Assembly: GCA_027858895.1 (NCBI GenBank)
Contig: JAQIBX010000055.1
Span: 1-36,073 of the forward strand
Length of the DNA: 36,073 nt
From: Desulfuromusa sp.
GTDB taxonomy: Bacteria; Desulfobacterota; Desulfuromonadia; Desulfuromonadales; Geopsychrobacteraceae
Reading direction: 5' to 3'
Part shown: piece after piece, positions 6,068 to 33,575 of the stretch
Position numbering within the stretch: position 1 is the stretch's first letter
Layout: each line of letters begins with the position of its first letter
Position numbers and translations under genes: made by a program
Notes under the pieces: model-generated
Seen by the model: only the letters and a program-made list of their open reading frames with translations
The model's database searches: none
Told to the model about the DNA's origin: nothing

Positions 6068-6142
6068 TGGCTGGGGCGCCAGGGATCGAACCTGGGAATG
6101 CTGGAATCAAAATCCAGTGCCTTACCGCTTGGCCACGCCCCA
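6068..6142 (-). tRNA. tRNA-Gln (anticodon TTG)
   Basis: On the minus strand the cloverleaf is complete. The acceptor TGGGGCG pairs with CGCCCCA. The D-arm is GGCCAAGCGGTAAGGC. The anticodon stem is CTGGA/TCCAG with loop TTTTGAT, giving anticodon TTG (Gln, CAA/CAG). The T-arm CCAGG-TTCGATC-CCTGG closes it. Discriminator base G and a genome-encoded CCA (6070-6068) follow. It lies between ispE and prs on the same strand, an arrangement common in proteobacteria. Confidence 0.97.
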
Positions 6143-6239: not shown

Positions 6240-7091
6240 CTAAACAGGTCGAACCGGACAGACCACCCAGTCATTCTCTTTTGCCAGTGATTCACCAGCA
6301 TGACTTGCAGCTGCAAAATTTTTGTAAACACCGAAAACAGTGGATCCGCTACCCGACATCAAAGCGCCAAGGGCACCCTGATCAAGAAGCTGCTGTTTAA
6401 TCTCAGCGATGAGCGGAAACTGCGGTAAAGTGACAGACTCCAGATCATTATGTAAAGCAGCACAAAGATCATTTCTCGTCACAACAGAAAACCTTGGAAG
6501 GTTAGCCAGTACGCCCCCTTTTGTCAACTGCAAACTTTGGTAAACCTCGGCAGTAGATACAGCTATCCCCGGGGTAATTAACAGATATGCGACCTCTGGC
6601 AAAACCGGTAATGATTCAAGTCTAGTACCAATCCCAGTTGCCCAGGCAGGCTGCTGAAATATAAAAAATGGGACATCAGCCCCCAGGCGAGCACCAATCT
6701 CGAGTAGCCGATCATCACCCAGATCCACTTCTAACAATTCCGACAATCCAAGTAAAACAGTTGCTGCATCTGAAGATCCTCCACCTAAACCGGCAGCCAC
6801 AGGTATCCGTTTTATGATTTTGATATCAACTCCAACGTCAATTTGAGTCTCTTCAAGGAATAGTCGAGCTGCCCGAGCTGCAATATTATCTTCGCCTGAC
6901 AACAATTCTACCCCTGCACACGCTACTCGCACACCCGGCGACCCACCCAACTGGATCTGGATATCATCACACAGATCAACCCGCTGCATCGCCATCGCAA
7001 GTTCGTGATACCCATTTTCAAGACGGCCTAATACGTACAGGCAAAGATTGATTTTAGCTGGGGCTCTAAATGTTCTTACTAATGTCCGCAT
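6240..7091 (-). CDS. ispE: 4-diphosphocytidyl-2-C-methyl-D-erythritol kinase
   Basis: This 283-residue GHMP kinase phosphorylates CDP-methylerythritol in the MEP isoprenoid pathway; the length equals that of the E. coli enzyme. The N-terminal PAKINLCLYVLG contains the catalytic Lys region. The ATP-binding glycine loop AAGLGGGSSDAATVLLGL is at about residues 98-115. The third GHMP motif, GALMSGSGSTVFGVY, is near the C-terminus. I chose the Met at 7091 (MRTLVRTF...) because TTAGAGGGAAT precedes it; an in-frame Met nine codons upstream lacks a ribosome binding site. It starts the minus-strand unit ispE / tRNA-Gln / prs. Its product feeds undecaprenyl phosphate, the lipid carrier used by MraY and MurG elsewhere in this window. 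Confidence 0.96.
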   Translation of the reverse strand: MRTLVRTFRAPAKINLCLYVLGRLENGYHELAMAMQRVDLCDDIQIQLGGSPGVRVACAGVELLSGEDNIAARAARLFLEETQIDVGVDIKIIKRIPVAAGLGGGSSDAATVLLGLSELLEVDLGDDRLLEIGARLGADVPFFIFQQPAWATGIGTRLESLPVLPEVAYLLITPGIAVSTAEVYQSLQLTKGGVLANLPRFSVVTRNDLCAALHNDLESVTLPQFPLIAEIKQQLLDQGALGALMSGSGSTVFGVYKNFAAASHAGESLAKENDWVVCPVRPV

Positions 7092-7127
7092 ATTCCCTCT
7101 AACCCAATTATGTATCAAGGCGCAACA

Positions 7128-7155: not shown

Positions 7156-7273
7156 GTCGTTAACTGACGTCACCTACCAAGACTAAGTATGACTAAAAAG
7201 ATTCTTTATGGCGGCTAACATTAGTACAAAACATGCCCTACCCCGAATCAAGAATCATCAAAAACGGCTGCCC

Positions 7274-7291
7274 TTGACCACTGGTGGTCAA
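7274..7291 (+). promoter_or_regulatory. dyad, candidate enhancer/activator site upstream of the TRAP promoter
   Basis: TTGACCAC-TG-GTGGTCAA is a perfect 8-bp inverted repeat with a two-base spacer. Its centre lies about 128 bases upstream of the transcription start predicted from the sigma-54-like promoter at 7384-7399, the usual zone for a bacterial enhancer-binding protein. A GntR-type operator is an alternative reading. Confidence 0.5.
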
Positions 7292-7383
7292 TTTTAGCCA
7301 GACAGAACAATTAGTTACTTTTTAAAAAAATAGTAACACCCATTGCTTACACAGTATCAGTGAAAAAAACATAATTCTAAAAA

Positions 7384-7399
7384 TGGCATTATCCTTGCT
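7384..7399 (+). promoter_or_regulatory. sigma-54 (-24/-12) type promoter of the TAXI TRAP genes
   Basis: TGGCAT-TATCC-TTGCT matches the consensus TGGCAC-N5-TTGCW at nearly every position, with GG and GC exactly ten bases apart. Transcription would start near 7410, giving a leader of about 197 bases before the binding-protein ATG at 7607. Confidence 0.65.
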
Positions 7400-7606
7400 A
7401 AATTGAGTCAATGATTAGCCATAAAAGAAAGAAACTTTAGCTCTACCCTTAACTTATACTATGGTGGTATATGTATTTTTATAACGTAAGAATGGAAATA
7501 AATAACGTTGTTCTCTTTTAGATTTTTTTGTCAGAAAAGCTAATTCAGCATTCTGACTTTTATGTAGCACTTCATGTTATCAACCCACACAAAGGAGAGT
7601 GGAAAA

Positions 7607-17970: not shown

Positions 17971-19161
17971 TCAGTCTACCCGCCGGCGCAGAAAAGTCGG
18001 GATATCAAAATGTTCGTCATCAAAAAACAAATCACGAGCTTGATTCGACAGATCGCGCGTTCTGCGGCTGTTTTGAGATACGGGCTGTTGCTTTCGGATA
18101 AAACTTGGCACATCCAGATCGGCCTTAGCACTCACCTGAGCCAGTGTTTGTACACGTTGATCTACAACATCAGCCATATCATCCTTAGTAGACTTTTCTG
18201 CAAAAGCTTCCCCGAAACCAGTAGCGATTGCGGTAATTTTAATTTTATCGCCAAGACCTTCATCAATCACGAGTCCAACAATAATATTGGCATCTGCATG
18301 GACTTTTTCGTGGATGATTGTTGATGCTTCTTCAAATTCCTCCATAGTCATACTTGACGAACCTGAAATATTCACCAGGACGCCCATTGCACCGGAGATA
18401 TCGACTTCCTCTAACAGGGGACTGCTGATAGCATTATGTGCCGCTTCAGCTGCGCGTCGCTCTCCTTCGGCAATGCCGATCCCCATCATCGCCATGCCGT
18501 GATTACTCATAACAGTCCGCACATCGGCAAAGTCGACATTGATCAACCCTTCAGTTGTAATCAGATCAGAGATCCCCTGAACGGCCTGGCGTAAAACATC
18601 ATCAGCCGGTTTGAATGCATCCAGAATACTCATATGCTTACCGGACAGACCGAGCAAACGATCATTTGGTACAACAACAAGAGAATCGACAATTTCGCGC
18701 AGTTCGGCGATGCCAGCTTCAGCCCGTTGCATCCGCTGACGTCCTTCACGGGTAAACGGCTTAGTGACAACGCCAACAGTCAACGCACCTGCCTCTTTTG
18801 CCGCTGCTGAAATAATTGGTGCGGCCCCGGTTCCGGTTCCACCGCCCATGCCGGCAGCGATAAAGATCATATCGGCACCTTCAAACATTTCAACCAGACG
18901 TTGTTTATCTTCTTCTGCCGCCTGTCGGCCAATTTCTGGATTTGCGCCAGCACCCAACCCCTTGGTCAGATGCCCTCCAAGCTGAACCTTCATAGATGCC
19001 TCACTGCGTCGTAATGCCTGCGCATCGGTGTTAGCAGTGATAAATTCTACCCCTTCAACATTGTTGCGGATCATCGAATTGACAGCGTTTCCTCCTCCAC
19101 CGCCGACGCCGATCACCTTAATCTTTGCAGCTTGATCCAATGCTGCTTCGAACTGGAACAT
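17971..19161 (-). CDS. ftsZ: cell division GTPase FtsZ
   Basis: This 396-residue tubulin homologue polymerises into the Z ring at midcell. The N-terminus AAKIKVIGVGGGGGNAVNSM carries the nucleotide-binding start; the GTPase signature GGGTGTGAAP is near residue 100; the T7 loop NVDFADVRTVM is near 200. The C-terminal conserved peptide DIPTFLRRRVD, which contacts FtsA, ends the protein after a variable linker. There are two good starts: Met at 19161 (AGAGGG just upstream, MFQFEA... as in relatives) and Met at 19182 (GGGAGG upstream). I prefer the first. The 121-base gap to ftsA holds a possible extra promoter and a leader hairpin, so FtsZ may be made beyond the level of the rest of the cluster. 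Confidence 0.98.
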   Translation of the reverse strand: MFQFEAALDQAAKIKVIGVGGGGGNAVNSMIRNNVEGVEFITANTDAQALRRSEASMKVQLGGHLTKGLGAGANPEIGRQAAEEDKQRLVEMFEGADMIFIAAGMGGGTGTGAAPIISAAAKEAGALTVGVVTKPFTREGRQRMQRAEAGIAELREIVDSLVVVPNDRLLGLSGKHMSILDAFKPADDVLRQAVQGISDLITTEGLINVDFADVRTVMSNHGMAMMGIGIAEGERRAAEAAHNAISSPLLEEVDISGAMGVLVNISGSSSMTMEEFEEASTIIHEKVHADANIIVGLVIDEGLGDKIKITAIATGFGEAFAEKSTKDDMADVVDQRVQTLAQVSAKADLDVPSFIRKQQPVSQNSRRTRDLSNQARDLFFDDEHFDIPTFLRRRVD

Positions 19162-19202
19162 GACTCCCTCTTGACTAGGCATAATGCCCTCCCTGATGCT
19201 GC

Positions 19203-19231
19203 GTTTTCGACTTCTCCGCGAACTCGAAAAC
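19203..19231 (-). promoter_or_regulatory. leader hairpin before ftsZ
   Basis: Eight-base inverted arms GTTTTCGA (19203-19210) and TCGAAAAC (19224-19231) enclose 13 bases in the region between a possible ftsZ promoter and its ribosome binding site. It could shape translation or mRNA stability, or be an operator. Confidence 0.45.
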
Positions 19232-19233
19232 TA

Positions 19234-19262
19234 GTTATATTTAAGTGAGCTTAATTTAGCAA
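19234..19262 (-). promoter_or_regulatory. possible sigma-70 promoter of ftsZ
   Basis: On the minus strand TTGCTA (19262-19257) is followed after exactly 17 bases by TATAAC (19239-19234). This is a fair match to both hexamers, located in the ftsA-ftsZ gap, about 75 bases before the ftsZ start. Confidence 0.42.
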
Positions 19263-19303
19263 ACTTTCCGTTAATTGACAAGTAATTATTGTATAATTAT
19301 CAA

Positions 19304-20533
19304 TTAAAAAAACTCACTGACCCACTCTTTCATCCGCTGTGAAACCCGCTCAAATACGTTCTTTTCTCCGATTTTAAACTTCTGAGCCTGGCTGTTCATG
19401 CTTCCATATTTAATCAAGCCAACTCCGGTCGCGTAAATAGGTGAATTCACAACATCGGTCAAACCACCAATATCAAGGGGATTACCACGTCGTACGGGCA
19501 AATTAAAAACCTGCTCTGCCAGTTCTGGCATGCCGGGCAAGATTGCGCTGCCACCAGTAATGACGATTCCCGAAGCAATTAAATCTGCATAACCACTTTT
19601 ACTGACTTCCCGATTAACCAGTGAAAAAATTTCCTCAACCCGTGGCTCAAGAATTTCTGCCAGCAATTGTCGCGATAAAATTCGTGGTTCACGACCGCCA
19701 ACAGACGGAACCTCGATGGTTTCATCTTTACCAACCATGGAAGTCAAACAACACCCGTAAGCTTGTTTGATCTTTTCCGCTTCTCCCATTGGGGTTCGCA
19801 AACCCACAGCAATGTCGTTGGTCAAATGATCGCCGCCGATGGACAGAACCGAGGTATATTTGATCGCACCTTCAGAAAAAATAGCGATATCAGCTGTTCC
19901 TCCGCCGATATCGACCAATGCGACACCCAGCTCTTTTTCATCTAACGACAGTACCGCTTCACTGCTGGCCAATTGCTCGAGGACAATGTCCGCAACATCG
20001 ATCCCAGCCCGATTGCAGCTCTTAATAATATTCTGGGCACTTGCCACTGCTCCGGTGACAATATGAACCTTTGCTTCCAAGCGCACGCCACTCATTCCCA
20101 GTGGCTCACGAATGCCATCCTGATCATCGATAATAAATTCTTGCGGCAAAATGTGCAGAACTTCACGATCCATGGGAATCGCAATCGCCTTGGCGGCATC
20201 AATCACCCGCTGCAGATCTTCACTGGTCACCTCGCGATTTTTAATCGCAATCACTCCCTGCGAATTCAGCCCTTTGATGTGTCCACCGGCTATTCCAGCA
20301 AAAACCGATTTAATTTCACATCCGGCCATCAATTCCGCTTCACGAATCGCCTTTTGAATTGCCGAAACAGTGCTCTCGATGTTGATCACAACACCTTTGC
20401 GCAAGCCCTTCGACTGACTGGTACCAATGCCGACAACATCCAGTCCCTCTTCCGTCATATTGCCGACAATGCAGCAAATTTTTGTGGTGCCGATATCAAG
20501 TCCTACAATTAAATTTTCTGTTCTTTTGCTCAT
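19304..20533 (-). CDS. ftsA: cell division protein FtsA
   Basis: This 409-residue actin-like protein tethers FtsZ to the membrane and recruits later divisome proteins. Phosphate-binding motifs are seen at the N-terminus (VGLDIGTTKICCIVG), in the middle (VDIGGGTADIAIF near residue 205) and toward the end (ASGIVITGGSAILPGMPEL near 330). The C-terminal segment FERVSQRMKEWVSEFF is the amphipathic membrane-targeting helix. GGGGG before the ATG marks the start. It is 15 bases after ftsQ and 121-142 bases before ftsZ, depending on the ftsZ start used. Confidence 0.97.
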   Translation of the reverse strand: MSKRTENLIVGLDIGTTKICCIVGNMTEEGLDVVGIGTSQSKGLRKGVVINIESTVSAIQKAIREAELMAGCEIKSVFAGIAGGHIKGLNSQGVIAIKNREVTSEDLQRVIDAAKAIAIPMDREVLHILPQEFIIDDQDGIREPLGMSGVRLEAKVHIVTGAVASAQNIIKSCNRAGIDVADIVLEQLASSEAVLSLDEKELGVALVDIGGGTADIAIFSEGAIKYTSVLSIGGDHLTNDIAVGLRTPMGEAEKIKQAYGCCLTSMVGKDETIEVPSVGGREPRILSRQLLAEILEPRVEEIFSLVNREVSKSGYADLIASGIVITGGSAILPGMPELAEQVFNLPVRRGNPLDIGGLTDVVNSPIYATGVGLIKYGSMNSQAQKFKIGEKNVFERVSQRMKEWVSEFF

Positions 20534-20548
20534 GACACCCCCTTGGTA

Positions 20549-21397
20549 TCAGCTCTTGGCCATTACTTTCAGCCGTTCAATTCGGACGATCACTTTTTCA
20601 TCAACATTCAGGTCAATATAATCGAGTATCTGCAACTTAGGTTGCAGTTGTGCATAGATCCGTTCCAGTCGATCTAATTTCTTGCTGTAATCGGCGTAAC
20701 CCAGCTTAACCTTGACACCGCCTTCTAACGTAAAGAGCGATAAACCGCCGCCGTCTTCGTGATGAAGTTCCGACACTTGATCTAGACTAAACAGATCGCG
20801 CTTTCTTAAGTCGGACAGTAAACCGACAATCTGCCGTAAACGTTGTGCATATTCTGCGTCGTGCCCCTGTGCCTTGTCGTAGTCAAATCCAGTAATAATC
20901 GGATAGTCAAGGTTGTCTGTTGCATCTAGAACTTTGAAAACTTCCCCGAGAGCATCAAGATAGTAGAGGTAGCCCAGATTGATGATTGCCACTGGCTGCC
21001 GTTCCTTCAAGCTGATCACCACTTGGCGAGGAAAGATTCGCTGGACATGTGCTTGTTGCACCCATGGATTCTCCTCTATTTTACGGCCGATCAGACCAAG
21101 GTCGAGATTAAAAGTATTAATACCGATTTCTATATCCGATAGTGCCACGGCCTGCTGCTCAGCGATCCGGTTGTTCCCCTGCACTGTAACTTGATCAATC
21201 CGAAACAGATCGGAGGCCAACAACAGTTGTGTGACAAAAAAACCGCCCACCAGAAGCATGACTGCACTAAATACCGCAACTCCGACGCGCAAAATCCGGT
21301 GCAGCAGTTTGCGCCAGTTCAAAGGCTTTTTCTGCTGTTTCCGCCGGTTCTGGCGAACCTTTTTAGTCTTTACCAATTTTTTTTTCAGATCACGCAT
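20549..21397 (-). CDS. ftsQ: cell division protein FtsQ (POTRA domain)
   Basis: This 282-residue bitopic inner-membrane protein links early and late divisome parts. It has a very basic cytoplasmic tail (KKKLVKTKKVRQNRRKQQKK), one transmembrane helix (about residues 36-60), then a POTRA domain starting FRIDQVTVQGNNRIAEQQAV, followed by the FtsQ/DivIB region with NPWVQQAHVQRIFPRQVVIS. Length and architecture are normal. It starts 9 bases after ddl and is followed by ftsA, the standard order. Confidence 0.95.
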   Translation of the reverse strand: MRDLKKKLVKTKKVRQNRRKQQKKPLNWRKLLHRILRVGVAVFSAVMLLVGGFFVTQLLLASDLFRIDQVTVQGNNRIAEQQAVALSDIEIGINTFNLDLGLIGRKIEENPWVQQAHVQRIFPRQVVISLKERQPVAIINLGYLYYLDALGEVFKVLDATDNLDYPIITGFDYDKAQGHDAEYAQRLRQIVGLLSDLRKRDLFSLDQVSELHHEDGGGLSLFTLEGGVKVKLGYADYSKKLDRLERIYAQLQPKLQILDYIDLNVDEKVIVRIERLKVMAKS

Positions 21398-21406
21398 ACT
21401 GTTCTC

Positions 21407-22318
21407 TTATTTATCCAGATCGGCATCGAGCAACATAATTTCAACCAATTGCGGGAAATCAATCCCCGCAGCCTGAGCTGCTTTCGGCAGCAAACTGGTT
21501 TCTGTCATCCCCGGAATAGTGTTAATCTCGATACAGAAAAACTCTCCCTCAAGGAACATAAAATCGACCCTTGCGGCACCCCGACAACCGAGAACTCGAC
21601 ACGCTTTAAGTGCCGCCTGCTGAACCTGCTGATAGCTATCTGCATCGATCGGAGCCGGCAGCAGATACTCAGTATCTCCAGAGATATATTTTGCCTGATA
21701 ATCATAAAAACCGCTCTTTGGGACAATCTGGATAATTGGCAAGGCCTTTCCATTCAGCACCGATACGGTTAACTCGGCACCAGCGATAAATTCTTCAACC
21801 AGAACCGTGCCATCCAGAGCGGCAGCCATTGCAATTCCAGAATCTAAATCAGCACGATTCCTGGCAATTGTGATCCCGATGGTTGAACCTTCACGTGAGG
21901 GCTTTACCACCAGGGGCAAATGATTGCAGCGCTGGGACAAATCACTGGCTGAGTCTCCGGGGCGCATAAAATCAAACTCGGGTGTTGGTAACTCATGATA
22001 AATCAGCAACTGTTTGGTCATGACCTTATCAATCGCCATACTGGAGGCCAACACGCCACTGCCGGTATAGGGAATCTGCAACATTTCCAGCAACCCCTGG
22101 ACCCGACCATCTTCGCCAAACCGACCATGCAGGGTGATAAACGCAATTTCAATGTTGGCTTCCTGCAATTGTTGTGGCAGATTTTGCTGAACATCAATAG
22201 CAACCGCATTGTAGCCAAGCTGTTGCAACGCACGCAGAGACGCATATCCAGTTTTCAGTGAGATCTCCCGTTCTGCCGACAAGCCTCCCAGCAAAACACC
22301 AATCTTCTTTGGCAACAT
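21407..22318 (-). CDS. ddl: D-alanine--D-alanine ligase
   Basis: This 303-residue ATP-grasp ligase makes the D-Ala-D-Ala that MurF adds to the precursor. Motifs include IGVLLGGLSAEREISLKTG at the N-terminus (with the substrate-binding Glu), PLVVKPSREGSTIGI in the ATP-grasp core, and FFCIEINTIPGMTETSLLPK with the metal-binding EIN. The start at 22318 (MLPKKIG) was chosen because upstream in-frame codons would overlap the murC end and do not resemble the family. It follows murC by 20 bases. In most relatives murB lies at this junction; here it does not. Confidence 0.96.
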   Translation of the reverse strand: MLPKKIGVLLGGLSAEREISLKTGYASLRALQQLGYNAVAIDVQQNLPQQLQEANIEIAFITLHGRFGEDGRVQGLLEMLQIPYTGSGVLASSMAIDKVMTKQLLIYHELPTPEFDFMRPGDSASDLSQRCNHLPLVVKPSREGSTIGITIARNRADLDSGIAMAAALDGTVLVEEFIAGAELTVSVLNGKALPIIQIVPKSGFYDYQAKYISGDTEYLLPAPIDADSYQQVQQAALKACRVLGCRGAARVDFMFLEGEFFCIEINTIPGMTETSLLPKAAQAAGIDFPQLVEIMLLDADLDK

Positions 22319-22338
22319 CTCTTCTCGCGTATAACAAC

Positions 22339-23724
22339 TCAACCCTGGACAACTTTCTGGCGCAATTTTTCCGCCAACATTTCGCAAACCTGATTGACAT
22401 TCCCCGCTCCGAGGGTCACTACGAGATCGCCCGGTTGCACAATTGTTGCGACATAAGCACTTACTTCTTCCAGAGTTGCCCGGTAAGTCACCGCTTTATG
22501 GCCATGATCAACGATTCCCTGAGCCAACGCTTCTCCTGTTGCCCCCTCTATCGATTCTTCTCCCGCCGCGTAAACGTCGGTGACCACCAGCTGATCGGCC
22601 TGGTAAAATGCAATCAAAAAATCATCGAACAATGCCGCCGTGCGGCTGTAGCGATGCGGTTGAAATACTGCAATCACCCGCTTATTCCAGCCGCTCTTAG
22701 CCGCCTCTAAAGTCGCTCTAATCTCTACAGGATGATGGCCATAATCATCCACGATCATGATGTTGTCGATTTCATCCCGAAGTTCAAAACGTCTCTGTAA
22801 ACCGCCAAAGTTTCGAAACCCACCAATGATTGTCTGGAACGGAACCTCAAGTTCATGAGCAACAGCAATCACCGACAGAGCATTCAAAACATTATGGCGA
22901 CCGGGCATCCGAAATGAGATTTTCCCCAAGTTTTCACCCTTATAAAAAGCGCTGAAACTGGTTCGTCCCTGCCGATGATGAACGTCCTCAGCATAAAAAT
23001 CGGCCTGACGGTTAAAGCCGTAGGTAATAAACCGCCTTTTAACTTTGGGAAGAATATCTTGAATATTCCGATCGTCCAGACAGAGAACAGCTCGGCCGTA
23101 AAAAGGAACCTTGTTGATGAAATCGATGAAGATCTGCTTTATTTCCTCAATTCCTGAATAGAAATCTAGATGATCTGCGTCGATATTGGTTACTACGGCG
23201 ATGGTTGGTGAAAGATGCATAAAGGAGCCATCAGATTCATCAGCTTCGGCAACCAGAAACTTGCCACGCCCCAGTTTTGCGTTGGAGCCAAACACATCCA
23301 GCCTGCCACCAATCACTGCAGTGGGGTCGAGCCCGGCATGCTGCAACACCACCGACATCATACTGGTTGTTGTGGTTTTGCCGTGAGTTCCGGCTATGGC
23401 GATTCCATATTTCATCCGCATCAGCTCAGCTAACATCTCTGCACGTGGAATCACGGCAACATGCTGGCGCAGCGCTTCAGCCACTTCGGGGTTTTCAGCT
23501 TTGACTGCTGTGGATGTCACAACCACATCGACTTCTGAAATGTTTTCGGCACTGTGCCCAATGACAATCTCACCCCCAAGTGCACCCAACCGCCGGGTTG
23601 TTTCAGATTCACGCAGATCGGAGCCAGAGACCTGATAACCAAGATTCAACAACAATTCGGCAATACCACTCATGCCAATTCCACCGATACCGACAAAATG
23701 TATTTTTTTGATTCTTCCGTACAT
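22339..23724 (-). CDS. murC: UDP-N-acetylmuramate--L-alanine ligase
   Basis: This 461-residue Mur ligase adds L-Ala to UDP-MurNAc. The N-terminal [20 protein letters not shown] is the UDP-binding loop, [19 protein letters not shown] near residue 110 is the ATP P-loop, and [18 protein letters not shown] near 330 is the Mur ligase C-domain motif. The start codon directly abuts the murG stop (ATG-TAA-ATG arrangement). It is cytoplasmic and complete. Confidence 0.97.
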
Positions 23725-24816
23725 TTACATTTCCTCCATCAGTGGCGTCCCGAGCAATCGTCGGCACTCGTTGAGAATTCGTTCCGCTGCCCCCGTAAAC
23801 CCAATTCGACGACCTCGCTCAGCCATCTTTTCCAATTCTGTTCGTCCTTCAAGTAACTCTTTCACCAAAACCACTAATCGTTCTGCGGTTAATTCATCTT
23901 GTGACAGTAAGATTGCCGCTCCGGCATTTTTCAGCGCTTTTGCATTGGCCGTCTGGTGGTCTGCGGCTGCATGGGGAAACGGAATCAATATCGCCGCTCT
24001 CCCGCAGGCTGTCAGCTCGGCCAAAGTCGTGGCACCGGCACGACAGATCACCAAACTCGCTGCAGAGTAAGCAGCGGCCATATCATCAATAAAAGGAACA
24101 ACTTGCTGCGGATCAAGACCGGCATCGCGATATGCCTGCTGGACATGAAGAAAATCATCCTCCCCGGTTTGATGCAGAATTTCCGGTTTTTTTGCCCAGT
24201 CATTCAGCAAAGGCAACATTTTTATGACCGCCTGATTTATCGCTCTGGCTCCCCGGCTGCCGCCGAAAATCAAAAGCTGCCCCGGCTGAGGAACTTCTTC
24301 AGGAACGCTATCCAGCCCTTGCCGCAATGGGTTTCCGGTGACTATGGTTTTGTTGCTGTCAAAACCGGCACCACCAGCAGCAAATGAGAGACAGATTAAT
24401 TTTGCGCCCTTACCCAACAGTCGGTTACTTAAGCCAGGGATCGCATTTTGCTCATGAATCAGATAAGGAATTCCTGTCATTTTTGCCATCAGCAACACCG
24501 GAACTGAAGCATACCCACCAACTCCCACAACTAAATCAGGCTCAAAATTACGCAGTATTTTATAGGCCTGGCCGAGACTCTTGAATAATTTTGGCAACAC
24601 TTCAAACTTGCCCCGCCAGCCACGACCAACGACTCCAACCATGTCGACAGTGGCCAGAGGAAATCCCAGTTTTGGCAGCAACCGCTGCTCTAAACCGCGT
24701 TCGGTACCGACAAACTGCACCGCTGAATTTTCATCCTGCTTGAGTAATAGTTGCGCCAGTGCGACTGCCGGAAAAAGATGACCTCCGGTTCCTCCACCGG
24801 CCAGCAGCAGCCTCAT
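23725..24816 (-). CDS. murG: lipid II synthase MurG (UDP-GlcNAc transferase)
   Basis: This 363-residue GT28 glycosyltransferase adds GlcNAc to lipid I at the inner face of the membrane. It begins MRLLLAGGGTGGHLFPAVAL, the donor/acceptor glycine loop; GVGGYASVPVLLMAKMTGIP, FGGSRGARAINQAV and CRAGATTLAELTACGRAAIL follow in order. The Met at 24816 is correct: it overlaps the ftsW stop by four bases (ATGA), whereas a 70-codon upstream extension lies inside ftsW in another frame. Confidence 0.97.
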   Translation of the reverse strand: MRLLLAGGGTGGHLFPAVALAQLLLKQDENSAVQFVGTERGLEQRLLPKLGFPLATVDMVGVVGRGWRGKFEVLPKLFKSLGQAYKILRNFEPDLVVGVGGYASVPVLLMAKMTGIPYLIHEQNAIPGLSNRLLGKGAKLICLSFAAGGAGFDSNKTIVTGNPLRQGLDSVPEEVPQPGQLLIFGGSRGARAINQAVIKMLPLLNDWAKKPEILHQTGEDDFLHVQQAYRDAGLDPQQVVPFIDDMAAAYSAASLVICRAGATTLAELTACGRAAILIPFPHAAADHQTANAKALKNAGAAILLSQDELTAERLVVLVKELLEGRTELEKMAERGRRIGFTGAAERILNECRRLLGTPLMEEM

Positions 24817-25916
24817 TTGGTCGACCCCAGTGAAGTTGAAATATTCAACAGGATTCCAACAGCAATCAGACTCACCACCAGACTGGTTCCACCGTAGGAA
24901 ACAAACGGCAGAGCCAAGCCCTTGGTTGGCAACAAACCCATGCAAACAGCCAGATTGACAAACGCCTCCAGTCCGAGCAACAAACTCAAACCAAAAGCCA
25001 GATTCCGGCCAAAAGGTTCCTGACAATGTAAAGCAATGCGGATACCACAGAGGACCAGCATCAGAAACAGTGCTGCCACAGTAAGGGCTCCGACCATGCC
25101 AAGCTCTTCACCAATGACTGAAAAGATGAAATCAGTGTGAGCTTCTGGTAGATAAAATAATTTTTGTTCGCCTATTCCAAGTCCTTGCCCTACTATTCCA
25201 CCCTTACCAAAGGCAACTAAACTTTGGATAATCTGAAAACCGGTATCAAAAGGATCATCCCACGGGTCGAGGAATGCCATGATCCGACGGCGGCGATAAT
25301 CGACTTGCATAACCAGAAAATAAACCACAGGCAGTGTCATAAGAATCGTTAGCAGGATATAACGCCAACGCACCCCCGCAACAATCAGCATCGAAAGTGC
25401 CACACCTGCAATAATCATCGCGCTGCCAAGATCAGGTTGTTTCAGCAACATACCGAGCAACAATCCAAGGACGATCATATAGGGAAGATATCCTTTTAGC
25501 AGCGAACTGACTTTGTCCTTTTTACGGGTCAGTGAGTGGGCAAGATAGAGAACCAATGTCAGCTTAACCACCTCGGCCGGTTGAACCGTCAAACCGGGCA
25601 AACGCAACCAACGCATGGCGCCACCAACCCGAACACCTAACCCGGGAATAAACAGTAGTGCCAGAAGGACAATACTACCGAGCAGAGCAATCACAGCTAA
25701 TTTCCGCCAGTTTTTGTAATTGAAATAGGTTGCAACTGCCATCAGAATAAAACCAATCAGTGCATAAAGCAGTTGCCTTTTCAGGAAATAAAAACCGTCA
25801 TGAAATCGCTCAGCTGCCATAATTGCTGAGGATGAATAAACCATCACCACCCCGATACAGGTCAAGGAAACCGTCAGCAACAACAGAGTGGTATCAACAT
25901 CACGCCGTAAAGTCAT
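24813..25916 (-). CDS. ftsW: septal peptidoglycan polymerase FtsW (SEDS family)
   Basis: This 367-residue polytopic membrane protein polymerises lipid II together with FtsI. It begins with an amphipathic start then MVYSSSAIMAAERF. The conserved KQPDLGSAMIIAGVALSMLI, the region VGQGLGIGEQKLFYLPEAHT and the C-terminal GLALPFVSYGGTSLV are SEDS hallmarks. About ten hydrophobic segments are visible. Both ends overlap neighbours by four bases (murD before, murG after), suggesting translational coupling. Confidence 0.96.
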   Translation of the reverse strand: MTLRRDVDTTLLLLTVSLTCIGVVMVYSSSAIMAAERFHDGFYFLKRQLLYALIGFILMAVATYFNYKNWRKLAVIALLGSIVLLALLFIPGLGVRVGGAMRWLRLPGLTVQPAEVVKLTLVLYLAHSLTRKKDKVSSLLKGYLPYMIVLGLLLGMLLKQPDLGSAMIIAGVALSMLIVAGVRWRYILLTILMTLPVVYFLVMQVDYRRRRIMAFLDPWDDPFDTGFQIIQSLVAFGKGGIVGQGLGIGEQKLFYLPEAHTDFIFSVIGEELGMVGALTVAALFLMLVLCGIRIALHCQEPFGRNLAFGLSLLLGLEAFVNLAVCMGLLPTKGLALPFVSYGGTSLVVSLIAVGILLNISTSLGSTK

Positions 25917-27274
25917 GAGGCCTCCCCTTCTAGTGGAAGCTGCTGTACCAGTCGCTCAAACTCAACCCCGCGCGCCTGAAAATTGGCGAACATGTCAAAA
26001 CTCGAACACGCCGGAGACAGCAGTACCGTCCCACCGGAAGGAGTGATTTTATAAGCTTGCTGAACCGCTGATTTCAACCCTTCAGACAGGCGAATCTCGC
26101 AACTTCCTGACAGATCTGCAGCCATTTTCTGTGCCGCTTCACCAATCAGAATCAGGTGTTTAACTTTTTGCTCCAGCAACGGTCTGAGCAGCTTATAGTC
26201 ACCACCCTTATCTTTTCCACCGGCGATCAGGGTGACTCCGGAAGCAAACCCGGCAAGACTTTTCATCACACTACCAACGTTGGTTCCCTTTGAATCGTTG
26301 TACCAGGACACGCCATTCAATTGCCGCACCAGTTGCATCCGATGCTCAAGTCCGGTGAATGAACAGACCGCCTGCCATGCCAGTTCCGCCGGGCATCCCT
26401 GCAGTAACGCCGGTATCATGGCAGCCATAGCATTTTCAATATTGTGTTCACCGGAAAGTTGCAAACTTGACAGCGGTAGCTGAATATCAGTACCAGCCCA
26501 ATTCCAGACCAGTTTTTCTCCCAGCCTGACCATCCCATCAACCAACCGTCCGCGGGCAGAAAACCAGACTTTAGTTGCTTTGAGATCGTCCGTCAGCCGA
26601 CAGACTTCCGGATCATCTGCGTTGAGCACAACAAAATCAGCCTTTGTCATATTACTGAATATTTTTAATTTTGCTCGGTAGTAGCTTTGCAAGTCGGGAT
26701 AGCGATCAAGGTGATCTGAGCTTAGATTGAGCAACATGCCAATGGTGGGATGGAATTGGTCGATGGTTTCTAATTGAAATGAAGAGAGCTCGACAACCGC
26801 ACCATCAATCTTTGTAGAGCATGCTTCAACCAGGGGCGTTCCTAAATTTCCACCGACAAAAACATTTTTTCCCCAGGCCTGCATAATTTCACCGATCAGA
26901 CTGGTGGTGGTTGATTTGCCGTTGGTGCCAGTCACGCCGATGATCGGCACAGTGATTTCCCGAGCAGCGATTTCAATCTCTCCAAGCACTGGGATACCAC
27001 AGGATACCGCGCGTTGCAGTGGCTCACAATCAAGAGGGACTCCCGGACTGACGGCAATCAGATCGGCCTGTTCAAACAGCTCCAGATTATGCCCACCCAA
27101 GTCAAAACGGACCGGCAGCCCAGCCAGGGAATCGAGTCCCGTAAGTTGTTCCCGCTTGCGGACTTCAGATAAGGCGACTGTCGCGCCCCGTTCAAGGAAA
27201 AAGCGCACCAACGCCAAACCACTTTTACCAGCGCCGATAACAACAACTCTCTTATGATTGAAATTAAGTTTCAT
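25913..27274 (-). CDS. murD: UDP-N-acetylmuramoyl-L-alanine--D-glutamate ligase
   Basis: This 453-residue Mur ligase adds D-Glu. It starts with [20 protein letters not shown], the UDP-precursor loop. [19 protein letters not shown] near residue 110 is the P-loop, [19 protein letters not shown] follows, and [20 protein letters not shown] and [13 protein letters not shown]-like segments close the C-domain. The start at 27274 overlaps the mraY stop by four bases (ATGA); the longer in-frame extension would lie within mraY and was rejected. Confidence 0.97.
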
Positions 27275-28347
27275 CGCAGCTTCAAGGTTGAAAGTGCAAT
27301 CAGTGCCAGCACAATGCTGATAATCCAAAATCGCACAATAATTTTTGGTTCCGGCCAGCCTTTTAATTCAAAATGATGATGAATAGGGGCCATTCTGAAG
27401 ACTCTGCGTCCCCAGTAACGGAACGAAATCACCTGGACAATAACCGAAAGTGCTTCAATCACGAAAATCCCACCAACAATGACCAGGACAAATTCATTTT
27501 TAGTAATAACCGCGATAGTTCCCAGCGCTCCGCCGAGAGACAAACTACCGACATCCCCCATAAATACCTGTGCTGGATAGCTGTTAAACCATAAAAAACC
27601 GAGCCCGGCGCCAACCATCGCACCACAGAGAATCGCCAGCTCTCCCGCTCCCTGAATACCGGTAATCTGCAGATAATTGGCAAGTTTTGCGTTGCCGACC
27701 AGGTATGCCAACAACAGGAACGTTCCAGCAGCAATGATCATCGGTCCGATAGCCAGACCATCGAGGCCATCGGTCAGGTTCACCGCATTGCTGGACCCAA
27801 CCATCACCAAAATCGCAAATAAAATATAGAAAGCGCCAAGGTCAGGATTTACATTTTTTAAAAATGGCAAACTCAAATGGGTGTCAAAGGTGCCGCTGCG
27901 ATAGAGCAGCAATGACGCAATCAGGGCGATCAGAATCTGCCAGAACAACTTCTGTCGAGCAGATATCCCGTCACTGTTCTTACGCACAACCTTGAGATAA
28001 TCATCAATAAAACCAACCGCACCATATCCCGTTGTGACCAATAATGTGACCCAGATATAGAGGTTTGTCAGGTCAGCCCAGAGCAGGGTTGGGAGAATAA
28101 TCGCCAGTAAAATCAACGCCCCGCCCATGGTCGGGGTCCCCTCTTTGACAAAATGGGATTCGGGTCCAACCTTGCGGATCGTCTGACCAATCTGCATCCG
28201 TTGCAAGGTTGCAATCAACCAGGGACCAAGGATAAAAGAGATAAGCAGGGCGGTGATGGTCGCATAGATGGTGCGAAAGGTAATATAACGAAAAACATAC
28301 AACACCGAATATTCGGTATGGAGAGGATATAAGAGGTGATATAGCAC
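27271..28347 (-). CDS. mraY: phospho-MurNAc-pentapeptide transferase
   Basis: This 358-residue, ten-helix enzyme transfers phospho-MurNAc-pentapeptide to undecaprenyl phosphate, making lipid I. The acidic motif [14 protein letters not shown], the catalytic [16 protein letters not shown] and the C-terminal [17 protein letters not shown] are present; the first cytoplasmic loop carries [13 protein letters not shown]. The start codon is GTG (28347-28345) with AAAGGA about ten bases before it. The gap from murF is three bases. Confidence 0.97.
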
Positions 28348-28350
28348 CCG

Positions 28351-29745
28351 CTAGTTTCCTTTCTTTCCATTTAAAGGTGTATTGACGGCAGTTTTCAAAG
28401 CTGCTGCGACTTGTTCCAGTCGTATCCCTCGTGACCCCTTCACTAGAATTTTGTCACCCGGACGTTGTTGCACCTGCAGATAGTCGATTGCAGCAGCAGC
28501 ATCTGCCAACTCAATCATTTGTCCAGGTTTCATTCCCGCTTTTTTTGCCCCCCGACAAAGATCAGCAGAAAACGTACCGACACCAATTAACAACTCAGTA
28601 ACCCCGACTGCCTTAGCGCCTAGTTCTTCATGCATCTGCGCCGAATCTTCACCCAATTCGAGCATATCTCCCAACACTGCAACCCGGCGTCCCTGCCCTG
28701 ACAACGATGACAAAGCGTCGAGAGCTGCATACGCAGAAAGAGGATTTGAATTATAACTGTCGTCGAGTAACAGGCCACCACAGGGAAGCGGGGAAAGATT
28801 CATCCGCCCCTGAATGGCACTAAATTGAGCCAGTCCGGCAACAATTTTTTCTACCGGAACGTTCATTACTAAAGCCGCTGCAATAGCGGCGAGAGCATTC
28901 GACACATTGTGCCGTCCGGGAATTCTCAGTTGTACTTGATACCTGTGCCCGGTGGACAAAAGATCAAACCGAACACCGTCAACGTTCTCTTCAATGTTTT
29001 CAGCACGGACTTCAGCCTGTTCAGACACCCCGTAGGTTAGTTTTTTAACCCCATTGGCAACCGGCAATTGTGCCACCCGTGGGTCATCAAGGTTGAGAAT
29101 TGCTGTCCCTCCCCGTAAACCAGCAAAAAGTTCTCCCTTTGCTCTTGAGACGCCGTCCAGACCGTGCAATGTTTCCAAATGCGCCGCACCGATGTTGGTA
29201 ATCACACCAATTGTTGGTTGGGAAATTTCGGTTAAGCGTTCTATCTCGCCAAGTGCGCTGGTGCCCATCTCTAGAACTGCCCATTGATGTGTTTTTTCCA
29301 GGCGAAACAGGGTCAGCGGTAAACCGATCAAGTTATTAAAATTTCCTACCGTTTTCAATCCCGGCGCTACCTGCTCCAGAATTGTAGCAAGCATCTCCTT
29401 GGTCGTTGTTTTGCCGGCTGAGCCAGTAATGGCAACCAATGGTCCGTTGAGTTGCAATCGGTAAACAGCAGCGACATCTCCAAGTGCTCGCAAAGTATTA
29501 GCAACCCGCACAACCGGCACACTCAAGCCAGCAGTAACTTCTTCACTCAGGCAGGCAGCGGCACCATTCTTTACCGCCTGACTGAGGTAATCGTGGCCAT
29601 CAAAACGTTCTCCGCGCAAGGGAACAAACAGAGATCCAGGAGTCAGGTTACGGCTATCAGTAGAAATTCCCGTTAACTGACAATTGACTTTTCTGCCGGA
29701 AAAATCACCGTCAGTAATTCTGGCAATTCGCTCCAGATCAAACAT
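28351..29745 (-). CDS. murF: UDP-MurNAc-tripeptide--D-Ala-D-Ala ligase
   Basis: This 464-residue Mur ligase completes the pentapeptide with the dipeptide from Ddl. It shows ISTDSRNLTPGSLFVPLRGE at the N-domain, VAITGSAGKTTTKEMLATIL as the P-loop near residue 108, and LLDDSYNSNPLSAYAALDAL, the conserved DxYNxNP motif of MurF. It overlaps the murE end by eight bases, and GGAG within murE serves as its ribosome binding site. Confidence 0.97.
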   Translation of the reverse strand: MFDLERIARITDGDFSGRKVNCQLTGISTDSRNLTPGSLFVPLRGERFDGHDYLSQAVKNGAAACLSEEVTAGLSVPVVRVANTLRALGDVAAVYRLQLNGPLVAITGSAGKTTTKEMLATILEQVAPGLKTVGNFNNLIGLPLTLFRLEKTHQWAVLEMGTSALGEIERLTEISQPTIGVITNIGAAHLETLHGLDGVSRAKGELFAGLRGGTAILNLDDPRVAQLPVANGVKKLTYGVSEQAEVRAENIEENVDGVRFDLLSTGHRYQVQLRIPGRHNVSNALAAIAAALVMNVPVEKIVAGLAQFSAIQGRMNLSPLPCGGLLLDDSYNSNPLSAYAALDALSSLSGQGRRVAVLGDMLELGEDSAQMHEELGAKAVGVTELLIGVGTFSADLCRGAKKAGMKPGQMIELADAAAAIDYLQVQQRPGDKILVKGSRGIRLEQVAAALKTAVNTPLNGKKGN

Positions 29746-31300
29746 GTTTTTCAGCTCCGATTTCGCTCCCCATACTATCTGGACCTTTGACCTCGTTCAG
29801 CACCCGGTCTAATTCTTCCCGGTCATCAAAGTGTATTTTTTCAGTTCCAAGCACCTGATAATCCTCGTGCCCCTTCCCTGCAACCAGCAGAAGATCACCC
29901 GCTCCGGCTAAATGACCTGCAAACTCAATCGCGGCACGCCGATCAGGAATAACCACAAACCCATCTTCACTCGCGGCCTGTTTCTGGCTTAATTCCCGAC
30001 TACCGGTAGCCAATGCGCCGCCTCGAACCTGCTCCAGAATTTTTAGAGGATCTTCGGTGCGAGGATTATCTGACGTAAAAATGGATAAATTCGAGTATTT
30101 AACCGCCACGGCAGCCATAATCGGGCGCTTCCCCTTATCTCGATCTCCGCCACAACCTACAACTGTAAGCAATCGATGAAATTCAAGTTTTGACAGGGTT
30201 TTCAATGCTTGTTCAAGGGCGTCAGCGGTGTGGGAGTAATCGACCAGAGCCAAAACTCCTTTAATATTCTTAACTTTTTCTACCCGCCCGGGCACTTGGG
30301 GAGCCGCTGCGATTCCCTTGGCAATAAGTTCATTGCTGATACCAAACTGTTGCGCCGTTGCAACCGCTGCCAGCAGGTTACTGACATTAAAATCACCAAT
30401 CATCCCACTTTCAACAACAACTTCCCCTTGCTCACTTGAAAAAACTCCACTGATTTGATCACGGCTAACAACAACTTGCTGCGGGTAAACTTTGGCGCGC
30501 TCATCCAGTCCGAATGAAATCCAGTTCTGATTTTCCTGCAATAAATTGGCACCGCAAGCATCCTCACGGTTAATGACCGCAATCCCGGTGCCTAATAGGT
30601 CGGTAAACAGTCGTCGTTTGCTGGCAAAATACCGATCCAGTGTTTCATGATAGTCAAGATGATCCTGGGTGAGATTGGTAAACACAGCAGCATCGAAGTT
30701 AATTCCGTCAACTCGGTGTTGCTCTAATGCGTGAGAAGAGACCTCAAGGATCAGGACATCTGCACCATGCTTACGGAACTCTGCCATCATCCGCAGCAAA
30801 TCGATCGATTCAGGGGTTGTGCGAGACGCTTCGTAGCGCAAGTCACCGAGCCGGTATTCGATCGTTCCAAATACTGCTGGAGAAAATCCAGCCTGCTTAA
30901 ACATTGCTTCGAGCAAATAGGTAGTGGTGGTTTTTCCATTGGTTCCAGTGACACCAATGACAGGAACACCCACGGTTGGATTGCCATAAAATTCTGCTGC
31001 CATGACAGCCATTGTCTGCCTGACATTAGCCACCTTGATGTAGCAAACATTTTCCACGCATTCTGTCGGAATCTGCTCCGAAACAACCGCAGTCGCACCC
31101 GCCTTTAGAGCCTGAGGAAGATAGTCAAAGCCATCAACCTTGACGCCGGGTAGCGCAAAAAACAGCATATCTGCCTGAACCTGACGGGAATCACAAGCCA
31201 ATCCGGAGACAACCAGTTCCGCTGACCCGGTTATTGCGAGTGGATGAATTATTGTTAACAACTTTTTCAGTTTCATCTGCTGTCCTTGTGAATCTGACAT
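29738..31300 (-). CDS. murE: UDP-MurNAc-L-alanyl-D-glutamate--meso-DAP ligase
   Basis: This 520-residue Mur ligase adds the third residue. The substrate motif is DNPRTEDP (D-N-P-R), which marks meso-diaminopimelate-specific enzymes rather than Lys-specific ones, so the wall is of the Gram-negative type. [20 protein letters not shown] is the P-loop near residue 116. Two starts are plausible: Met at 31300 (GGAG eight bases upstream, 3 bases after the ftsI stop) or Met at 31276 (AAGGA seven bases upstream, MKLKKLL... closer to the usual N-terminus). I list the longer one. Confidence 0.96.
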   Translation of the reverse strand: MSDSQGQQMKLKKLLTIIHPLAITGSAELVVSGLACDSRQVQADMLFFALPGVKVDGFDYLPQALKAGATAVVSEQIPTECVENVCYIKVANVRQTMAVMAAEFYGNPTVGVPVIGVTGTNGKTTTTYLLEAMFKQAGFSPAVFGTIEYRLGDLRYEASRTTPESIDLLRMMAEFRKHGADVLILEVSSHALEQHRVDGINFDAAVFTNLTQDHLDYHETLDRYFASKRRLFTDLLGTGIAVINREDACGANLLQENQNWISFGLDERAKVYPQQVVVSRDQISGVFSSEQGEVVVESGMIGDFNVSNLLAAVATAQQFGISNELIAKGIAAAPQVPGRVEKVKNIKGVLALVDYSHTADALEQALKTLSKLEFHRLLTVVGCGGDRDKGKRPIMAAVAVKYSNLSIFTSDNPRTEDPLKILEQVRGGALATGSRELSQKQAASEDGFVVIPDRRAAIEFAGHLAGAGDLLLVAGKGHEDYQVLGTEKIHFDDREELDRVLNEVKGPDSMGSEIGAEKHV

Positions 31301-31303
31301 CAG

Positions 31304-33256
31304 TTACACTCCAAACCGAATCCATGCCTGCTTGCCATAATGGATGACCTTCCCTGGAGCCGGAGATTGCTTAATCACCTGGCCGCTTCCAGAAAGTTTC
31401 AAATTCAGATTTTTCTTTTCCATTGTCTGCAACACCTGCCGATAACTCATCCCGGCAAAATCTGGCATTTTCAACCCATCATTCACCTCAACATCGGGGA
31501 GCAACGCAGCCAAATCGGGTAAGGGTTCCGCAGCCAACTGTTCTTTTGTGAGAGCGGCAACGACTCCCTTGGGGAGGATATTCAAATGACTCAGAGCTTG
31601 CCCGGCAATTCGTGCAAATACCGGTGCCGCAATGAGGCCGCCATAAGCGTCTCCTTGAGGCTCATCAACGGTGACAGAAAGAACCAGTGCTGGATTGTCC
31701 GCCGGGACAAAACCAACAAAGGAGGAAACCCGTTTATCCGGAGAGTAACCGCCCGTCACCGTATCAACCTTTTGTGCCGTACCCGTCTTACCGGCAACCC
31801 GGTAGCCGGCTAGCGCCGCTCTGGTTCCTGTTCCGCCCGGTGCAGTCACAGTGACCATCATACCCCTCACCAGTTGCGCAGTTTTCTCCGAAATAACCCG
31901 GCGTCTAACCTGAGGGAGTCGTTTCTGTACGAGTTGGCCATCAGCATCGGTAACCTTTTCAACCAGATATGGCTCCATCAGCAAGCCACCATTGGCAATA
32001 ACAGCCATCGCGGAAGCCATCTGAATCGACGTAACACTGATTCCCTGACCAAAAGAAATTGCAGCCAGGTCGATCTCAAACCAGTTTGATGGTGAACGCA
32101 GCATCCCATCGACCTCTCCAGGAAGGTCAAGACCGGTCTTTTCAGCAAAACCAAAACCACGGATATAAGAATAAAATCGCTCACGTTCCAACACCTTACC
32201 CAGCTTTGCTGAGCCAATATTGCTGCTGAATTTAAGGATTTCTGTCAGTGTCAGCTGTTTGAATTTCTTATGGTCTCGAATCGTTTTTCCGCCAACCGAA
32301 TAGCGACCATTTTCACAATAAATTTTCTGACCAGGACGAACCAGCCCTTCTTCCAAAACACCTGCCATCAGAAAAGGCTTAAAAGTTGACCCCGGCTCAT
32401 ACATATCGGTCACAGCTCGATTACGCCGTTGCGCTGCCCGAGAGTGCCCAGCCAGGTTCGGGTTGTAATCAGGCTGGTTGGCCATTGCTAAAACCCGCCC
32501 GCTGGCAGGTTCCAACATCACAACAGTTCCACCAACCGCCCCGGTTTCATGAACAACTCGAGCCAGTTCTTTTTCAGCCACATATTGCAGCGACCGATCT
32601 AAGGTCAAAAAGAGATTATGGCCGGCCACCCCACCTTGAATCAGTTGATCTGCTGACGCCAGACCTCGCCCTCTGGCATCATGTAACGACACCAGACGAC
32701 CTGACTCCCCCTGCAACTGCCGATCATAAGACAGCTCGACCCCCTCAAGCCCGTTCGGATCGAGACCGGTAAAGCCCAGAACATGTGCTGCAGTACTGGC
32801 TTGTGGATAGTAGCGCTTCCGCTCAGTTACAAATTGCAGTCCATAAATTTTCAGGTCACGAACTTGCTTTGTGATTTCTGGATCAAGTTTCCGCTGCAAC
32901 CAGACAAAACGTTTTTTGGAAGACAGTAATCGTTCCAACTCTTTTTTTGAACTTTTCAGCAGTTTTCCCAGTTGCCTGGCAACGTCCTCAGGGTCCTTAA
33001 TGAACGCAGGATCAGCATAAAGTGATTCCGCTGCCAGACTCTCTGCCAGTGGGTCACCTTTACTATCAAAAATACTTCCTCGCTGGGGAGCTAACTTAAC
33101 GACACGTTGGCGCTGTTGATCAGCGCGCGCTTGGAGTTCTGGAGCCTGCACAACCTGAAGATAATAAGCACGCCCGGCAATCGTCATAAATGCCAGGATA
33201 AATAGAACCCCGAAAAAGCGGATACGAATTTGAATTCCACGTTCCGTTAAAGCCAT
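31304..33256 (-). CDS. ftsI: septal transpeptidase FtsI/PBP3 with C-terminal PASTA domain
   Basis: This 650-residue class B penicillin-binding protein crosslinks septal peptidoglycan with FtsW. One N-terminal transmembrane helix (FFGVLFILAFMTIAGRAYYL) is followed by a dimerisation domain (SIFDSKGDPLAESLAAESLY) and the transpeptidase. Active-site motifs are STFK near residue 289 (EPGSTFKPFLMAG), SSN (KFSSNIGSAKLG) and KTG near 489 (VAGKTGTAQKVDT). The last ~60 residues form a PASTA domain (MPDFAGMSYRQVLQTMEKKN ... QSPAPGKVI). The Met at 33256 is used: it begins one base after the ftsL stop. Confidence 0.96.
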   Translation of the reverse strand: MALTERGIQIRIRFFGVLFILAFMTIAGRAYYLQVVQAPELQARADQQRQRVVKLAPQRGSIFDSKGDPLAESLAAESLYADPAFIKDPEDVARQLGKLLKSSKKELERLLSSKKRFVWLQRKLDPEITKQVRDLKIYGLQFVTERKRYYPQASTAAHVLGFTGLDPNGLEGVELSYDRQLQGESGRLVSLHDARGRGLASADQLIQGGVAGHNLFLTLDRSLQYVAEKELARVVHETGAVGGTVVMLEPASGRVLAMANQPDYNPNLAGHSRAAQRRNRAVTDMYEPGSTFKPFLMAGVLEEGLVRPGQKIYCENGRYSVGGKTIRDHKKFKQLTLTEILKFSSNIGSAKLGKVLERERFYSYIRGFGFAEKTGLDLPGEVDGMLRSPSNWFEIDLAAISFGQGISVTSIQMASAMAVIANGGLLMEPYLVEKVTDADGQLVQKRLPQVRRRVISEKTAQLVRGMMVTVTAPGGTGTRAALAGYRVAGKTGTAQKVDTVTGGYSPDKRVSSFVGFVPADNPALVLSVTVDEPQGDAYGGLIAAPVFARIAGQALSHLNILPKGVVAALTKEQLAAEPLPDLAALLPDVEVNDGLKMPDFAGMSYRQVLQTMEKKNLNLKLSGSGQVIKQSPAPGKVIHYGKQAWIRFGV

Positions 33257-33257
33257 A

Positions 33258-33575
33258 TCACTCCACCCTGATAATTTGTCCAGGTGATGGGGTACGTAAC
33301 CCCAGCTCTTTTCTGGCGAGTTTCTCAATCCGTTCATCTCGAGCCAGAAAAGCAACCTCCATTTTCAACTCCTTGATCTGATTCCCATGACTACGAATGT
33401 CACGTTCCAAACTGGAGATGCCATATTCAAGATTGATCGCGTGAATCCTCGACCAGACAAACAACAATGACAGCAGGGAAACCAGCAAAATTGCTACAAA
33501 TACCGAGCTGAGCCGGGGCCGATAAAATGAAAATTCAGTAATTTTTATTGTTGCTTGAGATACGGCTTCTGACAT
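33258..33575 (-). CDS. ftsL: cell division protein FtsL
   Basis: This 105-residue bitopic protein has a short cytoplasmic part, one transmembrane helix (SVFVAILLVSLLSLLFVWSR, about residues 24-43) and a periplasmic coiled coil (LEYGISSLERDIRSHGNQIK onward). It would form the FtsQLB complex. The end RKELGLRTPSPGQIIRVE is typical of FtsL/DivIC proteins. FtsL is poorly conserved, so the call rests on topology plus its exact place between rsmH and ftsI. AAGGAATTAA precedes the ATG. Confidence 0.9.
   Translation of the reverse strand: MSEAVSQATIKITEFSFYRPRLSSVFVAILLVSLLSLLFVWSRIHAINLEYGISSLERDIRSHGNQIKELKMEVAFLARDERIEKLARKELGLRTPSPGQIIRVE

Follow-up and report, generated by a model that had tools for sequence, protein, structure and literature searches.

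A putative sigma-54 enhancer-promoter region and a predicted C4-dicarboxylate uptake regulon at a TAXI TRAP transporter locus of Desulfuromonadales

In rhizobia, Pseudomonas and Vibrio, the DctB-DctD system combines a periplasmic-sensor kinase with a sigma-54 NtrC-type regulator, tandem upstream sites and a dicarboxylate transporter as target. According to the accessible text of the respective papers, MifS-MifR from Pseudomonas aeruginosa is a sigma-54 two-component control of organic-acid uptake that is specific for alpha-ketoglutarate (PMC4482717), the RpoN regulon of G. sulfurreducens includes dcuB, a C4-dicarboxylate exchanger (PMC2725144), and the regulons of enhancer-binding proteins (EBPs) and sigma-54 in D. 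vulgaris, as derived from comparative genomics, mostly comprise one to four operons (PMC4641369). Regarding the transporters, the TAXI-family systems VcGluPQM from V. cholerae and PmTAXI from Proteus mirabilis, both with a fused permease, carry glutamate and 2-oxoglutarate, respectively, and one knockout implied fumarate among other solutes (PMC11574862). Few of the widespread TAXI TRAP transporters have been assigned a solute; the regulation described below offers a testable assignment, namely to C4-dicarboxylates.

The window, i.e., the whole stretch of 36,073 nucleotides analyzed here, is contig 10 of a draft genome of Desulfuromusa sp. (2.78 Mb, 183 contigs). Its transporter is of the TAXI type, with a TAXI solute-binding protein starting at ATG 7607 and a fused permease, both of which score above the cut-offs of their models (Table 1). 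A tRNA gene lies between prs and ispE (6071-6142, minus strand), and a cell-division and cell-wall cluster with FtsZ, FtsA and a PASTA penicillin-binding protein occupies 17971-33355 on the same strand. When a leader RNA was sought with Rfam, none was found in the window, the sole match being one tRNA.

Table 1. Features of the control region and of the adjoining genes in the window
Feature	Position	Strand	Basis or remark
ispE-like GHMP kinase, divergent neighbor; locus anchor across the order	6240..7118	-	Pfam GHMP kinase; also adjoins in relatives
Operator palindrome 1 CGGCTGCCCTTGACCA, weaker half of the tandem, putative activator site	7265..7280	+	Aligned, kept 5' of orthologous operons
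Perfect dyad TTGACCAC-TG-GTGGTCAA of the initial annotation	7274..7291	.	Inner half-sites of both palindromes
Operator palindrome 2 TGGTCAATTTTAGCCA, strong copy, putative	7285..7300	+	Matrix score 18.8; alignment with relatives
AACA-N3-TTNTA block directly 5' of -24	7368..7379	+	Column conservation over 40 promoters
Sigma-54 -24/-12 promoter TGGCATTATCCTTGCT	7384..7399	+	Exact consensus match; kept in orthologous promoters
Predicted transcription start, ~12 nt 3' of the -12 GC	7410	+	General sigma-54 spacing
Shine-Dalgarno AAGGAG	7592..7597	+	Sequence
TAXI-type TRAP solute-binding protein, 318 aa	7607..8563	+	TIGR02122, 217 bits (cut-off 84); PF16868
Fused TRAP permease (DctQM), 576 aa	8752..10482	+	TIGR02123, 570 bits (cut-off 321); PF06808

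Promoter and operator architecture

The sigma-54 promoter proposed in the initial annotation was confirmed in its letters, the GG-N10-GC spacing being exact within TGGCAY-N5-TTGCW, and a degenerate sigma-54 motif is expected to match 0.11 times per window. The element is conserved in the order, and the window genome harbors one copy of rpoN, at C51 (TIGR02395, 447 bits for a cut-off of 277). Some of the related promoters conserve the AACA-N3-TTNTA block strongly, and others lack it. At L027, L030, L032, L033, L080, and L082, a GAACGC...GCGTTC-like inverted repeat is found about 20-45 nt after the -12 element, i.e., just 3' of the predicted start, where it is possibly a second operator or a leader hairpin.

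Upstream of the promoter, a perfect dyad had been taken as the activator site. Its letters are present and its center lies ~127-128 nt 5' of the predicted start, but the conserved unit is another one: aligning, then scanning, 14 orthologous upstream regions revealed a 36-bp tandem, [YGGC-N8-RCCA]-N4-[YGGC-N8-RCCA], at 7265-7300, which consists of two 16-bp TGGC-N8-GCCA palindromes 20 bp apart. The dyad is composed of the second half of palindrome 1 and the first half of palindrome 2, and it was rejected as operator because relatives conserve the tandem palindromes instead. Taken alone, the perfect dyad is weak evidence, near the chance level, since the window has seven dyads with an arm length of 8 bp and a loop of at most 4, as compared with 0-5 in five shuffles. 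It is a single copy in the genome at 0-2 mismatches, and it is the tandem palindromes that recur, in relatives. Near matches to the tandem in the same genome include one inside a kinase ORF (C22) and one near ordinary ORFs (C45); a single palindrome at C120, 649 nt before a TrkA-like gene, scores 10.8 and was taken as a chance occurrence.

Two further dyads had been pointed out, GTTACT/AGTAAC in the AT-rich segment as a possible bend and TATAC/GTATA in the leader (7455-7471). Both exist, but dyads of such size are common in the window, with 224 at an arm length of 6 bp and 467 at 5 bp, and neither of the two is kept in relatives; they were thus dismissed as elements, and for them the chance reading stands. 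The tandem at 7265-7300 has the arrangement sought in an enhancer, namely repeated palindromes ~80-200 nt upstream, and its spacing is conserved. At L014 (G052), the TAXI gene is preceded by an intact sigma-54 promoter and by an operator of variant form, with a distance of 31 bp, or three helical turns, between TGGCTATTATTCGCCA and TGGTTTATTTCAGCCA.

Conservation and proposed transporter exchange at the ispE locus

A gene-independent pattern search found the tandem together with the sigma-54 promoter in 49 of 136 Desulfuromonadales genomes, including matches in G042, G099, G107, and G130 that look spurious, and the reversed control pattern in none. Both elements also occur in other families of the order, 5' of TAXI genes whose proteins are ~45-50% identical to that of the window. 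The distance from the tandem to the -24 element is mostly 130-136 nt, otherwise 142-148 nt, and 119 nt in the window, these classes being about one helical turn apart. The initial annotation had named the loss of both its elements from orthologous promoters as a refutation; tandem and promoter are kept across the order. A chance assembly of dyad and promoter-like sequence, to which the near-chance level of the perfect dyad and of the smaller dyads alone would lend itself, is refuted for tandem plus promoter, which many families of the order conserve, and by the zero count of the reversed control, and its probability is negligible. These comparisons of sequence show a genuine control region with deep conservation in Desulfuromonadales.

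TAXI orthologues with 73-87% identity are found in Desulfobulbales, Desulfobacterales, and Gammaproteobacteria, where nearly all of them are devoid of tandem and promoter, and the control is therefore a property of the locus and not of the transporter. Within the order, the usual position of the site is the intergenic region that separates the divergent ispE, itself followed by prs, from a TRAP operon; this operon can be of the TAXI or the DctP type alike. The downstream system can be a TAXI like that of the window or a divergent TAXI with a much longer fused permease (~800-840 aa), while a DctP-type system is found in G016, G018, G021, G026, G034, G035, and G044, the DctP proteins at the ispE locus belonging to PF03480. 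In D. kysingii (L119), TAXI and then DctPQM TRAP operons follow in tandem after the ispE-linked control region.

In one genus, tandem and sigma-54 promoter precede a gene for a Cache-HAMP membrane protein without kinase domain (L103 in G033, L104 in G027, and L096 in G061), which may serve this regulon as an accessory sensor; the gene adjoins efp-like and epmA-like genes. At L109 (G028:C30), such a site stands before a different TAXI paralogue, ~28% identical to that of the window.

Candidate activator, signal and solute

The expectation that a dedicated activator would be encoded elsewhere is supported by a specific kinase-activator pair, located on another contig and linked to the operator by sequence. 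Among the 24 full EBPs of the window genome, the candidate is encoded on contig 82 (16261-20181), with a dCache-type histidine kinase and an NtrC-type regulator. The activator (18817-20181) has the receiver (PF00072), sigma-54 AAA+ (PF00158) and Fis HTH (PF02954) domains of a Group I response-regulator EBP; its best NCBIfam scores are obtained with the AtoC, NtrX, and NtrC models, all below cut-off. The kinase (836 aa) exhibits HAMP and PAS domains and a dCache_1 match so weak (24 bits, below the 45-bit cut-off) that its ligand was deduced from the target genes alone.

A palindrome matrix built solely from the TRAP sites was applied to the EBP loci. In most non-Desulfuromusa genomes of the family, palindromes scoring 15-19.6 are present in two places, one between the genes of the pair and the other 17-66 nt 3' of the activator gene; none is found at the kinase-activator locus of Desulfuromusa itself. 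The number of palindromes per 100 kb is 27 at C82-type loci, as compared with 0.8 for the L040 type, 1.9 for all remaining EBP loci (the G049 orthologue of the C82-type pair accounts for three of the eight matches there) and 0.2-0.35 at random. In G002 and G007, the pair is an immediate neighbor of the TAXI operon. Kinase and/or activator are present in 44 of the 45 plausible site-bearing genomes and in 54 of the 91 others (Fisher p 4e-7, with shared ancestry ignored, a nominal value that is weakened because the genomes are related); the site-bearing genome in which neither was found, G114, is a draft of 78% completeness. Many genomes in which no TRAP site was detected have the pair too, and it must therefore have other targets there.

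The first comparison of EBP sets, between one site-bearing and three site-less genomes, had suggested L040, whose presence pattern fitted in these four. The L040-type EBP was rejected because it is missing from several site-bearing genomes (G001, G002, G004-G007, and G021), and the C82 regulator was the next candidate. That promoter and tandem are real and the activator is another of the ~24 EBPs is quite unlikely: the link between pair and sites is one of sequence, and presence or absence is uninformative for L035, L036, L037, L041, L045, L051, and L055, which none of the compared genomes lacks, but the palindrome density is far above background solely at the C82-type pair, two genomes have this pair beside the TAXI operon, and L040, the other candidate with a good presence pattern, is absent from several site-bearing genomes. 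The C82 two-gene system is, on these grounds, the likely activator of the tandem sites. At G000:C130 (13268-15907, L055), a second TAXI binding-protein gene directly follows its own kinase and EBP genes, as a separate local TAXI regulatory unit.

A regulon search across the family genomes, based on a single palindrome plus a sigma-54 promoter, revealed two further classes of targets, namely a DASS symporter gene directly 3' of the activator gene and, in one genus, malic enzyme. Palindromes at these targets score 15.3-19.2, as compared with 2.5-10.8 for the unrelated matches scored. It is very unlikely that the palindromes bind a repressor or an architectural protein unrelated to sigma-54 activation; those following the activator stop by 17-66 nt can also be read as terminator-like hairpins, but in four gene classes unrelated to each other, the distance between palindromes and a sigma-54 element is that typical of an enhancer, and the 20 bp spacing of the tandem pair is usual for EBP enhancers.

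Regarding the signal, the dicarboxylate TRAP, DASS, and malic enzyme genes as joint targets suggest a C4-dicarboxylate, and the shared regulon therefore leads to the prediction that the TAXI transporter of the window, whose solute had been regarded as unknown, carries C4-dicarboxylates, e.g., malate or succinate. There is a minor but appreciable probability that regulon and activator are right and that signal and solute are other than C4-dicarboxylates, such as glutamate, 2-oxoglutarate or another organic acid. The characterized TAXI systems carry the first two of these (PMC11574862), and the DctP and DASS families include further solutes. The co-controlled proteins argue against it: the one DctP tested is closest to solved C4-dicarboxylate-binding DctPs, the DASS protein resembles VcINDY and the SLC13 dicarboxylate carriers, and malic enzyme is a further target.

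Taken together, it is highly probable that tandem and promoter are the enhancer and the sigma-54 promoter of a Desulfuromonadales C4-dicarboxylate uptake regulon driven by the C82 kinase-activator pair. The membrane histidine kinase, through its periplasmic Cache-type sensor, would detect external dicarboxylate and phosphorylate the partner NtrC-type activator, which would then bind the tandem TGGC-N8-GCCA palindromes as two dimers. By looping over ~127 nt, the bound activator would contact the sigma-54 RNA polymerase waiting at the promoter and thereby drive the TAXI TRAP operon, the solute carried being itself a prediction. With moderate confidence, it can further be proposed that the promoter beside ispE stayed under this sensor-activator pair as transporters of unrelated families replaced one another downstream of it, namely the TAXI type that other orders also have, a native TAXI type of divergent sequence, DctP, or TAXI plus DctP. 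The regulon would then define the solute, and the TAXI of the window would be a C4-dicarboxylate carrier in a family whose solutes known to date are glutamate, 2-oxoglutarate, and phthalate. A control that outlives the transporter it controls would be useful for annotating transporters by regulon, not by family. Candidate activator and operator can now be named in the culturable Desulfuromusa kysingii DSM 7343 and Malonomonas rubra DSM 5091.

Comparison with described systems

A literature search, with most subscription journals outside its scope, found no described regulator of this kind in Desulfuromonadales. To our knowledge, no TRAP swap at one locus is known for MifS-MifR. As far as the accessible text of the corresponding paper goes, the system considered here resembles MifS-MifR as a sigma-54 two-component control of organic-acid uptake, and differs from it in the predicted C4-dicarboxylates as compared with alpha-ketoglutarate (PMC4482717). 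As predicted here, C4-dicarboxylate transport is controlled by RpoN in G. sulfurreducens, a member of a related lineage, where the transporter is the DcuB exchanger; the accessible part of that report was not found to name an activator or operator (PMC2725144). As in the D. vulgaris regulome, an EBP-sigma-54 regulon was read from comparative genomics; in the text accessible for that study, TAXI or TRAP terms are absent from the main text and TGGC is found solely beside FlrA (PMC4641369). VcGluPQM and PmTAXI are similar to the system of the window in their TAXI family and fused permease, and differ in their solutes, glutamate and 2-oxoglutarate, from the C4-dicarboxylates predicted here.

As in DctB-DctD, a kinase and an NtrC-type regulator are predicted to activate a dicarboxylate transporter, a likeness in the way of working. 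Unlike in DctB-DctD, the weak dCache match of the kinase is followed by HAMP and PAS domains, the regulator is closest to AtoC, NtrX, and NtrC models below their cut-offs, the operator is TGGC-N8-GCCA, and the targets include TAXI, DctP, DASS, and malic enzyme. By analogy, the system is rated as a DctBD-like control.
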